Assembly: GCF_030816965.1 (NCBI RefSeq)
Contig: NZ_JAUSYQ010000002.1
Span: 2,451,001-2,515,000, forward strand
DNA length: 64,000 bases
Reading direction: 5' to 3'
Source: Streptomyces canus
GTDB taxonomy: Bacteria; Actinomycetota; Actinomycetes; Streptomycetales; Streptomycetaceae
The notes beneath the pieces were generated by a model. It was not told the DNA's origin. It ran no database searches and saw only the letters and a program-made list of their open reading frames with translations. Made by a program: the position numbers and the translations under genes. Of the stretch, positions 6,997-20,166 are shown one piece after another. How positions within the stretch are numbered: position 1 is the first letter of the stretch; the number at the start of each line of letters is the position of its first letter.

Positions 6997-7505
6997 GATC
7001 ACCTGGGCCGGTACGGATCATCCGGGCCGGCGGGAGACACAGGCGGTCGGTGGGGACACCCCGGGCCGACGGGAACCACCGAGGTCGGTGAAACTCTCCT
7101 GGGCCGACGAGAATCACCCGCAGTCGTGGGGCACCTGGGCCGACGAGAATCACCCGCAGTCGTGGGGCACCTGGGCCGGCGGGGAACACCCGCGGCCGGT
7201 GAAACTCACCCGCAGTCAGGGGGACCACCCGCGGTCGGCGAAACTCACCCAGGCCGACCGCGACCACCCGAAGTCGCGCGGATCACCCGCGGTCAACCGG
7301 GATCACCAGAGCCGATGGAGATCACCCGGGCCGACCGGGATCACCCACAGTCGTGGGGGTCACCCACGGCCGGCGGAAACCACCCGCAGCCAGGGGGACC
7401 ACCCACGGTCGGCGAAACTCACCCAGGCCGACCGGGACTACCCGAAGTCGCGCGGATCGCCCGCGGTCAACCGGGATCACCAGGGCCGGCGGGGACCACC
7501 CGCCC
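6997..7505. repeat. Degenerate tandem array, about 27 units of 18-19 bp
   Basis: Units resemble GGGATCACCCGCRGYCGGC, alternating between a GGGCCGAC type and a CGCAGTCGTGG type. Two 36-bp double units near 7109-7180 are nearly identical, and a block of about 95 bp at 7213-7307 recurs 178 bp later at 7391-7485. The array fills the space between the dapD promoter and the TetR gene and runs into the TetR 3' end, so the last TetR residues (AGPGDPG) are repeat-encoded. No separate gene is supported; long open frames here follow from the 18-nt period. Confidence 0.85.
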
Positions 7506-16204: not shown

Positions 16205-16218
16205 TTTGATCGATCAAA
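16205..16218. promoter_or_regulatory. Perfect palindrome TTTGATCGATCAAA
   Basis: A 14-bp perfect palindrome, AT-rich for this genome, in the divergent sufR / AAC(3)-like intergenic region, 41 bp before the acetyltransferase ATG. A protein-binding site is plausible but the binder is unknown. Confidence 0.4.
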
Positions 16219-16259
16219 CCGGTGGCATGTCGGGGCCCTGTCAGGGACACTCCGGAACC

Positions 16260-17129
16260 ATGCCGAAACCACCTCCCACCGGCCCACTTGTCACCCGCGA
16301 CACCCTCGCGGGGGAGCTGCGCGAGCTGGGTGTCCGCAGCGGCGAGATCCTCCTCGTGCACTCCTCCCTGAGCGCCCTCGGCTGGGTCTGCGGGGGCGCG
16401 GTCGCGGTGGTCCAGGGACTGCTCGACGCCCTCGGCCCGGACGGCACCCTCGTGGTCCCCACCCAGACCGGCGACCTCTCCGACCCGGCGGTGTGGAGCA
16501 ATCCGCCGGTGCCCGAGGAGTGGTGGGACACGATCCGGACGGCCATGCCCGCCTACGACCCCCTCGTCACGCCCTCGCGCGGGGTCGGGGTGATCCCGGA
16601 GACGGTGCGCACCTGGCCGGGCGCCCGGCGCAGCGCGCACCCGCAGACCTCCTTCGCGGCGACAGGCCCCCGCGCGCACGCGGTCCTGGACGGCCACGCC
16701 CTCGACTGCCGCCTCGGCGAGCACAGCCCTCTGGCCCGCCTCGAGGACCTCCACGCGCGCGTGCTGCTTCTCGGCGCGGGCTACGACACCTGCACGAGCT
16801 TCCATCTCGCCGAGTACCGCGTCCCGGCCCCGCTGGTGAGGGTCGGCCGCCCGGGACCGAACGGGTGGGAGGTGGTGACGGAGGTCTCGATCACCTCGGA
16901 CCGCTTCGACGAACTGGGCCACGACTTCGAGCGCGACCGGGCCGTCGTCGTACGCGGAAACGTGGGCGCGGCTGACGCCCGGCTGTTCCCGGTGGCGGAC
17001 GCCGTGCGGTACGCGCAGCGGTGGCTGACGCTGCACCGGTCATGGGAGGACATCCCCCAGGCCGCCCTGGGTGGAGATCCGGGTGGAGATCCTGCACCCG
17101 CCCGTCTGCGGCGCGGGCGGCGAACCTAG
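16260..17129 (+). CDS. AAC(3)-family aminoglycoside N-acetyltransferase-like protein
   Basis: Family motifs are clear: LLVHSSLSALGWVCGGAVAV near the N-terminus, DGTLVVPTQTGDLSDP, the RSAHPQTSFAATG block and GEHSPLARLEDLHARVLLLGA. The family transfers acetyl from acetyl-CoA to the 3-amino group of aminoglycosides, but many chromosomal Streptomyces members have no demonstrated antibiotic substrate. ATG 16260 (289 residues) is preferred; earlier ATGs at 16206 and 16227 add unrelated residues. The last residues (RLRRGRRT) extend into the promoter of the ABC exporter 10 bp downstream. Confidence 0.85.
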   Translation: MPKPPPTGPLVTRDTLAGELRELGVRSGEILLVHSSLSALGWVCGGAVAVVQGLLDALGPDGTLVVPTQTGDLSDPAVWSNPPVPEEWWDTIRTAMPAYDPLVTPSRGVGVIPETVRTWPGARRSAHPQTSFAATGPRAHAVLDGHALDCRLGEHSPLARLEDLHARVLLLGAGYDTCTSFHLAEYRVPAPLVRVGRPGPNGWEVVTEVSITSDRFDELGHDFERDRAVVVRGNVGAADARLFPVADAVRYAQRWLTLHRSWEDIPQAALGGDPGGDPAPARLRRGRRT

Positions 17130-17132
17130 ACT
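17127..17132 (+). promoter_or_regulatory. Candidate -10 element for the ABC exporter (leaderless)
   Basis: TAGACT lies exactly 7 nt before the ATPase ATG at 17140, with no ribosome-binding site between. It overlaps the stop region of the upstream gene. Confidence 0.5.
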
Positions 17133-17139
17133 CGGGCCC

Positions 17140-18063
17140 ATGCGAAGTGAGCCCGTGGTCCAGGTCCACGCCCTGGTGAAGCGGTACGGCACGAAGACCG
17201 CCGTGGACGGCCTCGACCTGGTGGCCCGGGCGGGCGTGACCGCCGTACTCGGGCCGAACGGCGCGGGCAAGACGACGACGGTCGAGACCTGCGAGGGATA
17301 CCGGCAGCCGGACTCCGGCACGGTACGGGTCCTGGGCCTCGACCCGGTGCGGCAGGCCCGTGAGCTGCACCCGAGGATCGGCGTGATGCTGCAGTCCGGG
17401 GGCGTGTACTCGGGCGCCCGGGCCGACGAGATGCTGCGGCACGTGGCCAGGCTCCACGCGCACCCGCTCGACGTGGACGCGCTGATCGAGCGCCTGGGCC
17501 TCGGCAGCTGCGGCAGGACGACGTACCGGCGCCTCTCCGGCGGCCAGCAGCAGCGGCTGGCGCTCGCCATGGCCGTGGTCGGCCGCCCGGAACTGGTCTT
17601 CCTGGACGAACCCACCGCCGGCCTGGACCCACAGGCCCGCCGCTCGACCTGGGACCTGGTCCGCGACCTGCGCGCGGACGGCGTCTCGGTCATCCTCACC
17701 ACGCACTACATGGACGAGGCCGAGCAGCTCGCCGACGACGTGGCGATCATCGACGGCGGCCGGGTCATCGCCCAGGGCACCCCGGAGGAGCTGTGCAGGG
17801 GCGGCGCCGAGAACACCCTGCGCTTCATGGGCCGCCCCGGGCTCGACGTGGGGTCCCTCCTCAAGGCGCTCCCCGCCGACTGCACGGCCGCCGAACTGAC
17901 CCCCGGCTCCTACCGGGTGGTCGGCAAGGTCAACCCGCAACTGCTGGCGACGGTGACGTCCTGGTGCGCCCAGCACGGCGTGATGCCGGAGAAGATCTCG
18001 GTGGAACGGCACACCCTGGAAGACGTCTTCCTCGAACTCACGGGCAAGGAGCTGCGCTCATGA
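17140..18063 (+). CDS. ABC exporter ATP-binding protein (DrrA-like)
   Basis: The 307-residue ATPase has Walker A (GPNGAGKTTT), signature (RLSGGQQQRLALAMAV), Walker B (LVFLDEPTAGLDPQ) and switch (LTTHYMDEAEQL), plus a C-terminal region of the drug-exporter type. It ends ...LELTGKELRS. Its stop overlaps the start of a repeated micro-ORF (ATGA at 18060-18063) instead of the permease gene, because a 92-bp unit has been tandemly amplified here. It sits just upstream of ctaA, like the ABC pair near heme A synthase in other streptomycetes; the substrate is unknown. Confidence 0.92.
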   Translation: MRSEPVVQVHALVKRYGTKTAVDGLDLVARAGVTAVLGPNGAGKTTTVETCEGYRQPDSGTVRVLGLDPVRQARELHPRIGVMLQSGGVYSGARADEMLRHVARLHAHPLDVDALIERLGLGSCGRTTYRRLSGGQQQRLALAMAVVGRPELVFLDEPTAGLDPQARRSTWDLVRDLRADGVSVILTTHYMDEAEQLADDVAIIDGGRVIAQGTPEELCRGGAENTLRFMGRPGLDVGSLLKALPADCTAAELTPGSYRVVGKVNPQLLATVTSWCAQHGVMPEKISVERHTLEDVFLELTGKELRS

Positions 18064-18155
18064 TGCCGGCCCGCACAAGGACCTGCTGGGGGTCCGGGGG
18101 TCATCCCCCGGGAAGGCACAGCCTCGAACTCACGGGCAAGGAGCTGCGCTCATGA
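18060..18155 (+). CDS. Repeat-encoded micro-ORF, copy 1 (31 residues)
   Basis: The ATG overlaps the ATPase stop (ATGA) and lies 8 nt after AAGGAG. The product starts MMPARTRTCWGSGGHPPGRH and ends with the ATPase C-terminal sequence LELTGKELRS. Whether the peptide matters or the frame only keeps ribosomes moving is unknown. Confidence 0.5.
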   Translation: MMPARTRTCWGSGGHPPGRHSLELTGKELRS

Positions 18156-18247
18156 TGCCGGCCCGCACAAGGACCTGCTGGGGGTCCGGGGGTCATCCCC
18201 CGGGAAGACACAGCCTCGAACTCACGGGCAAGGAGCTGCGCTCATGA
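18152..18247 (+). CDS. Repeat-encoded micro-ORF, copy 2 (31 residues)
   Basis: Same peptide as copy 1 (one silent AGG to AGA change). It begins within the stop of copy 1 (ATGA, 18152-18155) and ends overlapping copy 3 (18244-18247). Confidence 0.5.
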   Translation: MMPARTRTCWGSGGHPPGRHSLELTGKELRS

Positions 18248-18339
18248 TGCCGGCCCGCACAAGGACCTGCTGGGGGTCCGGGGGTCATCCCCCGGGAAGA
18301 CACAGCCTCGAACTCACGGGCAAGGAGCTGCGCGCGTGA
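18244..18339 (+). CDS. Repeat-encoded micro-ORF, copy 3 (31 residues)
   Basis: Same frame, with a last residue of Ala instead of Ser because this copy keeps the original ATPase/permease junction. Its stop overlaps the permease GTG (GTGA, 18336-18339), closing the relay. Confidence 0.5.
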   Translation: MMPARTRTCWGSGGHPPGRHSLELTGKELRA

Positions 18340-19106
18340 CGGCCACCGGTATGTACACCCCGAAGCCGGGCGCGGCACCGCTGGGACGCATGATCGCGAC
18401 CCAGGCGGTCCTGGAGACGAAGATGCTCCTGCGCAACGGCGAACAGCTCCTGCTGACGGTGGTGATCCCGACCCTGGTTCTGGTCCTGTTCAGCTCGGTG
18501 GACATCATCGACACGGCCGAGGGCAAGGCGGTGGACTTCCTCACCCCCGGCGTCCTGGCCCTCGCGGTCATGTCGACGGCCTTCACGGGCCAGGCGATCG
18601 CGACCGGCTTCGAACGCCGATACGGCGTCCTGAAGCGCTTGGCCTCCTCCCCGCTCCCCCGCTGGGGCCTGATGACGGCGAAAACGGCGTCGGTCCTGGT
18701 GACGGAGATCCTCCAGGTGATCCTCCTGACGGTGATCGCCTTCGCGCTGGGCTGGTCCCCGCACGGCAACCCGTTGTCCGTGCTGCTCCTGCTGATCCTG
18801 GGCACGGCGGCGTTCTCGGGCCTCGGCCTCCTGATGGCAGGCACCCTGAAGGCGGAGGCGACCCTGGCCGCGGCGAACCTGGTCTTCCTCCTGCTGCTGG
18901 TGGGCGGCGGAGTGATGGTCCCCCTGTCCAAGTTCCCTTCAGGTACCCAGGACGTACTGAGCCTGCTGCCGATCACGGCCCTGTCGGACGGCCTGCGGGA
19001 CGTGTTGCAGCACGGCGCCGGGATGCCGTGGGGCGACCTGGGGATCCTGGCGGTGTGGGCCGTGGCGGGTCTGGCCCTGGCCGGACGCTTCTTCCGCTGG
19101 GAGTAG
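18336..19106 (+). CDS. ABC-2 type exporter permease
   Basis: The 256-residue protein has six hydrophobic helices and the ABC-2 pattern (ERRYGVLKRLASSPLPRWGLM between helices 2 and 3; GVMVPLSKFPSGTQDVLSLLPITALSDGLRDVL near the end). It is the partner of the ATPase at 17140. GTG 18336 is 8 nt after AAGGAG and overlaps the stop of micro-ORF 3. ctaA follows 46 bp downstream with its own promoter. Confidence 0.92.
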   Translation: MTATGMYTPKPGAAPLGRMIATQAVLETKMLLRNGEQLLLTVVIPTLVLVLFSSVDIIDTAEGKAVDFLTPGVLALAVMSTAFTGQAIATGFERRYGVLKRLASSPLPRWGLMTAKTASVLVTEILQVILLTVIAFALGWSPHGNPLSVLLLLILGTAAFSGLGLLMAGTLKAEATLAAANLVFLLLLVGGGVMVPLSKFPSGTQDVLSLLPITALSDGLRDVLQHGAGMPWGDLGILAVWAVAGLALAGRFFRWE

Positions 19107-19139
19107 GGGCCCTCGTGAACGTATGCACAAGCGGCCCCC

Positions 19140-19145
19140 TACGAT
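19140..19145 (+). promoter_or_regulatory. Candidate -10 element for ctaA (leaderless)
   Basis: TACGAT is 7 nt before GTG 19153. No Shine-Dalgarno sequence precedes that GTG, so a leaderless message is likely. Confidence 0.5.
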
Positions 19146-19152
19146 GGAACGC

Positions 19153-20166
19153 GTGCCGAACCTGACCCGCGCCGACGCCGTAGCGGCCGTCCGCAACCCG
19201 CTCGCCTTCATCGCCGCACGCTGGACCCCGACTCCCCGGACGGTTCAGCGGGCTGCTCTCGCCGCGCTCGTCATGGCGGTGGTCATCGTGGTCACCGGCG
19301 GTGCGGTGCGGCTGACCGGGTCGGGGCTCGGGTGCCCGACCTGGCCCACGTGCACGGACGACTCGCTGACCGCGACCCGCGCGATGGGGGTGCACGGTGC
19401 CATCGAGTTCGGCAACCGGATGCTCACCTATGTGCTGTGCGCCGCCGTCGGATGGGCGATCATCGCCGCGCGCTCCGAGAAGCCGTACCGGCGCAGCCTG
19501 AACCGGCTGGGCTGGGCGCAGTTCTGGATCGTGATGAGCAACGCGATCCTCGGCGGCATCGTGGTCCTCGTGGGTCTCAACCCGTACACCGTCGCGGCCC
19601 ACTTCGTGGCGACGACGGCCCTGATCACGGTCGCCGCGGTGATGTGGCAGCGCACCCGCGAGGGCGACACGGCACCCCGCCCGCTGGTCGGCAAGCCGGT
19701 GCAGCAGCTGGTGTGGTTCCTGGTCGCGGCCGCCGCTCTGCTGATCCTCGTTGGCACCGTCGTGACCGGCGCCGGACCGCACGCCGGTGACTCCAGCGAG
19801 GTCGAGCGGATGCCGCTGGACTGGGAGACGGTGGCCAAGGCGCACGCGGTCCTGGCCTGGATCGTGGTGTCGCTGACCTTCGCCCTGTGGTTCATCCTCA
19901 AGGCGGTCGACGCCCCCAAGGGCCCCCTGCACCGCACCCGCGACCTCTTCCTGGTCCTCCTCTCCCAGGGCGTCATCGGCTACGTCCAGTACTTCACCGA
20001 CCTGCCCGAGTTCCTGGTCGGCCTGCACATGCTCGGCTCGGCCCTGGTGTGGATCGCGGTCCTGCGTGTCCTGCTGGCCCTGCGGGAGCGGTCCGAGGGT
20101 GAGGCGGCCGAGGTCCCGGCTCAGTCGTACGCGCCCACCAGTTCGTCGATCGCCGGGCCCAGGTAG
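19153..20166 (+). CDS. ctaA: Heme A synthase
   Basis: Membrane enzyme that oxidises heme O to heme A for aa3-type cytochrome oxidase. Eight helices are visible, with a disulfide-type loop (GLGCPTWPTC) and heme-ligand histidines in MGVHGAIEFGNRML, YTVAAHF, KAHAVLAW and GLHMLGSALVW. GTG 19153 (337 residues) is preferred over ATG 19123 or 19144 because of the -10 spacing and the start sequence VPNLTRADAVAAV. The last 46 bp overlap the convergent nucleotidyltransferase gene. ctaB, the previous enzyme in the pathway, lies 2.4 kb away. Confidence 0.93.
   Translation: MPNLTRADAVAAVRNPLAFIAARWTPTPRTVQRAALAALVMAVVIVVTGGAVRLTGSGLGCPTWPTCTDDSLTATRAMGVHGAIEFGNRMLTYVLCAAVGWAIIAARSEKPYRRSLNRLGWAQFWIVMSNAILGGIVVLVGLNPYTVAAHFVATTALITVAAVMWQRTREGDTAPRPLVGKPVQQLVWFLVAAAALLILVGTVVTGAGPHAGDSSEVERMPLDWETVAKAHAVLAWIVVSLTFALWFILKAVDAPKGPLHRTRDLFLVLLSQGVIGYVQYFTDLPEFLVGLHMLGSALVWIAVLRVLLALRERSEGEAAEVPAQSYAPTSSSIAGPR

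Follow-up and report, generated by a model that had tools for sequence, protein, structure and literature searches.

The tandem array that separates an ABC transporter ATPase gene from its permease gene in Streptomyces canus is, we consider it likely, a MIRU-like interspersed repeat of Streptomyces that acts as a relay of micro-ORFs in coupled gene pairs. The case is built on the anatomy of the repeat unit, the dispersal of its palindromic part, its recurrence at other operons and the conservation of frame, as read from the sequences. In the scenario we propose, a dispersed and probably mobile palindromic element of ~38 bp, termed here H (...GGGAAGACACAG), would come to have a copy of the neighbouring gene's 3' end on each side. 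At a coupled gene pair the resulting unit, comprising a copy of the gene tail with its SD sequence and stop codon, a spacer and H, would restore the stop/start overlap. Ribosomes finishing the ATPase would then restart on the micro-ORF, stop inside the next tail copy, restart again, and lastly do so on the permease. Frame-breaking changes would be removed by selection, and copies would be gained and lost, probably via recombination between the direct repeats. On the simplest reading, insertion of a unit is tolerated and presumably costs the host little because the coupling signal comes with the unit.

Anatomy of the repeat array

The array lies in the analysed window, a stretch of 64,000 nucleotides from a contig of 10.5 Mb; the array and the two genes that it separates are on the forward strand. 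The ATPase gene (17140..18063, 307 aa; Pfam ABC_tran, 1.1e-22) begins in the ORF list at an upstream GTG (17071), and 17140 was used as its start; its TGA stop overlaps the start of the first micro-ORF. The permease of the ABC-2 type (18336..19106, 256 aa; Pfam ABC2_membrane_3, 4.7e-24) starts with GTG. These matches agree with the pair named in the first-pass annotation, which had been made from the sequence alone. The ORF located 5' of the ATPase (16206-17129) matches the aminoglycoside 3-N-acetyltransferase family (Antibiotic_NAT, 3.4e-87) and contains a 12-bp tandem duplication at 17069-17092.

Between the two genes there are three full 92-bp units followed by a partial fourth copy, composed of the 30-nt ATPase tail and GTGA. 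TRF places the repeat at 18030-18333, with a period of 92, 3.3 copies, 99% matches and 0% indels; the 92-bp spacing previously claimed for four copies thus stands, and the count of full units is reduced to three. Each unit consists of the ATPase tail (LELTGKELR, with the SD sequence AAGGAG), ATGA, a 20-nt spacer S, and the palindromic element H ending with CACAG. The native ATPase tail, i.e. the left copy (18030..18059, SD 18046-18051), is directly preceded by TT, its left boundary being TT/C. Micro-ORF 1 (18060..18155, 31 codons), which has the ATGA overlap at both ends, covers the spacer of unit 1 (18064..18083), a segment that varies between species according to the cross-genome comparison, the first H (18084..18121, ending with GGCACAG; stem 18094-18100 / 18105-18111) and tail copy 2 (18122..18151, SD 18138-18143). 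It is followed by micro-ORF 2 (18152..18247, 31 codons), with the spacer at 18156..18175, H at 18176..18213 and tail copy 3 at 18214..18243 (SD 18230-18235), and by micro-ORF 3 (18244..18339, 31 codons), with the spacer at 18248..18267, H at 18268..18305 and tail copy 4, the right copy, at 18306..18335 (SD 18322-18327), which abuts the permease. The stop of micro-ORF 3 overlaps the GTG of the permease.

The ORF list and the junction survey agree with the earlier description of 96-nt ORFs (31 codons and a stop): three of them are chained via 4-nt overlaps, AAGGAG lies 8 nt ahead of the start at all four starts (those of the micro-ORFs and of the permease), and the 7-bp GC hairpin, CCGGGGG-TCAT-CCCCCGG, occurs three times, once per unit. 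A 29-mer around the hairpin has 3 matches in the window vs 0 in 100 shuffles. An Rfam search over 17100-19200 returned no match at E<=1. Elsewhere in the window, at 7098-7502, TRF and inspection of the sequence reveal dense, degenerate tandem repeats of ~19/39/58 bp (TCACCCG..., GGCCGA...), which by eye are unlike the 92-bp unit.

The relay pattern of one genome is weak evidence, because any tandem duplication of 3k+2 nt across an ATGA overlap makes such a chain with a chance of 1 in 3, provided that no stop intervenes; therefore, it is the comparison across genomes that carries the case.

The ABC junction across the genus

The permease was found in 389 of the 392 Streptomyces genomes. We compared 162 junctions, namely those of the 150 best-matching permeases and another 12 that were selected because they carry a unit. 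In 115 of them the genes overlap directly without any unit, in accord with the earlier assumption that the two genes normally touch, while 38 junctions carry one unit, 7 carry two and 2 carry three; among the 150 chosen without regard to the unit, 35 possess it. The NTGA chain is unbroken at 162/162 junctions, including 47/47 unit-bearing ones, and the claim that any copy number leaves the relay intact is thereby borne out for the 0-3 units seen. Comparison of this junction in related genomes had been proposed beforehand, and it revealed both frame conservation and variation of the copy number (0-3, compared between species rather than within one species).

ORFs of single units are 96, 93, 120, 51 or 45 nt long, every one a multiple of 3, and variants of 89 bp exist besides the 92-bp unit. 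In the array of L123 the ORF of a +1 unit continues through the next unit (189 nt) and ends at the ATGA of the permease. With three unit-bearing junctions identified later (L380, L386, L405), at least 50 of the 389 genomes have a unit at this place, where the remaining 224 junctions were screened by patterns only and one pattern match (G315), which looks like low-complexity sequence, was dropped. L380 fails the strict relay check, as its ATPase is split over two frames and the start of its permease is broken up, yielding a further small ORF; these breaks may be sequencing errors because the genome is a draft, 88% complete. We counted it as failing, which gives an intact relay in 49/50 unit-bearing genomes.

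Extra ORFs of 54 nt and 39 nt, NTGA-linked too, are found directly before the downstream gene in L380 and L413. The permeases of L118, L123 and L111 have an N-terminal extension, MSQAQLG(T/A)DRRGAAS, which resembles a decayed tail copy fused in another frame. A scan of GTDB contigs with a two-tail pattern returned 65 stretches, all of them Streptomyces by title apart from one, "Actinobacteria bacterium OV450".

The dispersed palindromic element

The first-pass annotation overlooked that the hairpin is part of a dispersed palindromic element that adjoins a duplicated 3' end of the upstream gene and is found at other genes as well. The 31-mer of H, searched with up to 3 mismatches, has matches in 12/14 genomes, and in 10/14 they are found away from the ABC junction; H is also present in 33 of the 68 genomes that have no unit at that junction. 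No H was detected in 16 relatives searched outside Streptomyces. Among 89 distinct sites, 6 are at the ABC junction and 83 elsewhere, the latter comprising 41 with strong flanking direct repeats and 42 without. In most cases the repeated sequence duplicates the 3' end of a gene. At 34 of the 41 repeat-flanked sites an open frame reads into the left copy and terminates within it or ahead of H, although a few such frames look spurious. At four loci (L034, in the S. canus genome itself, L211, L321 and L346) the copy beside H begins in the anticodon loop of a tRNA-Lys(CTT) gene and represents its 3' half, as identified with ARAGORN. The general arrangement can be written as (tail-S-H)n-tail-downstream.

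In 9 of 14 loci, as we group them, the left copy begins right after TT, a dinucleotide with a frequency of 0.020 in the window, and the right copy begins at or beside CACAG. It is possible, and we suggest it tentatively, that H represents a new class of mobile palindromic elements in Streptomyces that leaves on both sides a locus-matched 3' end of its target (or the 3' half of tRNA-Lys), from TT to a fixed CACAG, and that by carrying or copying the stop, the SD sequence and the start overlap it installs its own relay in operons. If true, such boundaries imply an unknown integration of a one-ended or circle type rather than ordinary transposition; the boundary models that we considered are integron attC sites, the target hairpins of DGRs, and the rolling-circle ends of IS91/Helitron-like elements. 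At L293 (G007:C1:2454586-2454625) H forms a near-perfect palindrome of ~40 bp without flanking repeats, perhaps a full-length form.

Coupled and uncoupled loci

Relays are found at other operons as well. The chain is intact at a pair of the TldD/PmbA family in 16/16 genomes read and at a pair of sugar-ABC permeases (BPD_transp_1) in 10/10 genomes read, and in one genome (L371, identical with L308) it lies between the large and small subunits of exonuclease VII. The Pfam scan was run on one example per pair, and the remaining genomes were assigned by protein homology, not by phase. At L360, one of the sugar permease loci, a unit carrying a frameshift is joined to its successor in a single 213-nt ORF, which still ends at the downstream start. 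At L371 a different frame is read through H and no tail repeat is detectable, yet the 99-nt relay holds, a finding that favours the relay over the peptide.

Loci at which the next gene follows without overlap served as the uncoupled control, namely the 3' ends of a gene of the EPSP_synthase family, of proline dehydrogenase and of a DnaJ gene (L333 was omitted, as the script read across its array). Here the spacer lengths vary and H is in frame in 7/22 cases, matching the chance expectation. With the relay intact in 75/76 genomes at the three coupled loci vs 7/22 in the uncoupled ones, Fisher's test gives 1.4e-11, a genome-level p-value that is inflated because the rows are related by descent. 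If classes of length change are counted instead, multiples of 3 make up 7/7 at coupled vs 5/12 at uncoupled loci (p = 0.016), or 7/9 when two compensated frameshifts are included (p = 0.11). In a search of 392 genomes that fixed an ATGA before H and left the spacing free between 12 and 40 nt, so that phase was not selected for, the ATGA-to-H spacing is in phase at 113/126 places, 17 further array copies being omitted; this set includes coupled loci, sites such as L387 and L402, where no gene ends at the ATGA, and rows sharing descent, and ~50 of its 143 rows were read. Most of the relays outside the ABC pair came to light in this search. Taken at the level of sequence, it appears that selection keeps the stop/start chain wherever H lies between coupled genes.

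Evolution of the units

The spacer diverges with phylogenetic distance, its mean difference rising from 0.26 to 0.61, and its length remains almost constant. Among 39 genomes, the spacer distance tracks the tree of the ATPase and permease (Mantel r = 0.39, 0/2000 permutations), and the distance of the hairpin does not clearly do so (r = 0.12, p = 0.17). The SD sequence ARGGAG is kept in 46/46 distinct 96-nt units. Counting on the tree requires 39 gains or 69 losses of units. In 32/39 genomes the tail copies are closer to the ATPase tail of their own genome than to those of others (distance 0.072 vs 0.141). In 19 close pairs of a full and an empty junction, resemblance to the empty neighbour is closer for the right tail in 9 and for the left tail in 6, with 4 ties; around 7 full/empty pairs we found no clear case of local DNA import. 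These patterns point to some vertical descent of the units, with frequent loss and local homogenisation, and the right tail copies may have been kept intact by gene conversion. Some units may also have been gained horizontally.

The possibility that the spacer derives from an ancient duplicate of the permease start was rejected, since its identity is 0.34 both to its own permease start and to those of others. The similarity of spacers between loci lies above that of column-permuted nulls (matched or exceeded in 0, 1 and 2 of 300), which codon periodicity could explain.

Alternative explanations

The simplest competing account is a neutral minisatellite, in which a chance tandem duplication of 3k+2 nt was kept by descent alone and the micro-ORFs are unused. 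It would have the right phase in 1 in 3 duplications, and it is compatible with the abundance of stop-free frames in the units: of 53 units, none has a stop codon in frame 0 or frame 1 and 3 have one in frame 2, and since the other frames are almost equally open, we discarded the absence of stops as proof of translation. The presence of units on the ATPase/permease tree requires 36 changes (shuffles: mean 40.8, minimum 32), an almost random scatter, and units are therefore not obviously needed; the weakening of the length-class test by compensated shifts also speaks for neutrality. Against it, the phase is kept at three coupled loci that are unrelated to one another, with length changes that are multiples of 3 or compensated, whereas at uncoupled genes the phase of the element drifts, and we regard the neutral account as quite unlikely.

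The units and their hairpins could instead form an attenuator that reduces the output of the permease relative to the ATPase, with the copy number selected for dose. The 0-3 copies between species and the 7-bp stem, complete in 43/46 distinct 96-nt units, would fit such a role, yet the near-random presence on the tree does not, and the element also occurs at uncoupled genes and beside tRNA-Lys. Moreover, one unit folds barely better than its shuffles (z = -1.10; 25/200 at least equal), and the stem is nearly invariant and hence offers no covariation evidence. Dose tuning thus seems rather unlikely to us. Finally, the micro-peptide itself (...GRGSGGRPPGRHS-tail) might be the functional product, as a similar core is found at three loci and the GC content of N24 by codon position is 0.57/0.66/0.82. 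However, a common peptide follows from the common DNA of H, the N-terminus is highly variable between genomes, and at L371 the relay persists with H in another frame; a functional peptide is very improbable. The relay of probably translated micro-ORFs remains our preferred reading.

Relationship to known systems

The statement in the first-pass annotation that no such system is known to have been described does not hold. According to a 2025 review, the MIRUs of mycobacteria are apparently mobile, insert at start codons and carry an internal ORF coupled at -4 nt, and their insertion is likely tolerated since the coupling limits its impact (PMC12548453). Two other papers describe MIRUs of 40-100 bp at 41 locations with copy-number polymorphism (PMC2734929) and MIRUs of senX3-regX3 as confined to M. 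leprae and the M. tuberculosis complex (PMC4213456). The Streptomyces units resemble them in being short tandem units between the genes of an operon, with 92 bp (89 bp in variants) falling into the same size range, in having an ORF apparently joined to the next gene by an NTGA (-4 nt) overlap, and in recurring at several loci, i.e. the ABC, TldD/PmbA-family, sugar-permease and one exonuclease VII relays, in addition to the 83 other sites of H. They differ in the host, which is Streptomyces and not a mycobacterium, in the possession of a palindrome, and in that the 3' end of the upstream gene is duplicated in the unit. To our knowledge, MIRUs, reportedly first described by Supply in 1997, lack obvious palindromes. 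The working principle is therefore already known from MIRUs, and the Streptomyces element, which we do not class as a MIRU, is set apart by its host, its palindrome and the duplicated gene tail.

Other dispersed palindromes offer partial parallels. Rickettsia palindromic elements insert within ORFs and are tolerated in frame inside coding sequences, whereas H forms separate overlapping ORFs between genes and is flanked by a gene-tail repeat. REP/BIME sequences and REPINs are, like H, short dispersed palindromes, often extragenic, but we know of none that duplicates the 3' end of a neighbouring gene or builds coupled ORFs. Termination-reinitiation at NTGA overlaps has been described between full genes; the same mechanism would operate at each step here, chained through micro-ORFs built by the repeat. 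A literature search, whose scope was mostly papers free of subscription and which included PMC4681348, found no published account of such an element in Streptomyces.

Implications

If our interpretation is correct, the idea known from MIRUs, that repeats in operons survive by rebuilding translational coupling, applies in a second genus as well, to a different element that bears a hairpin. The boundaries that duplicate gene tails pose the question of how such elements integrate. The junctions with 0-3 units, the occurrence in three or more operons, and the uncoupled loci as a control provide a natural series in which the reach of chained termination-reinitiation could be measured.
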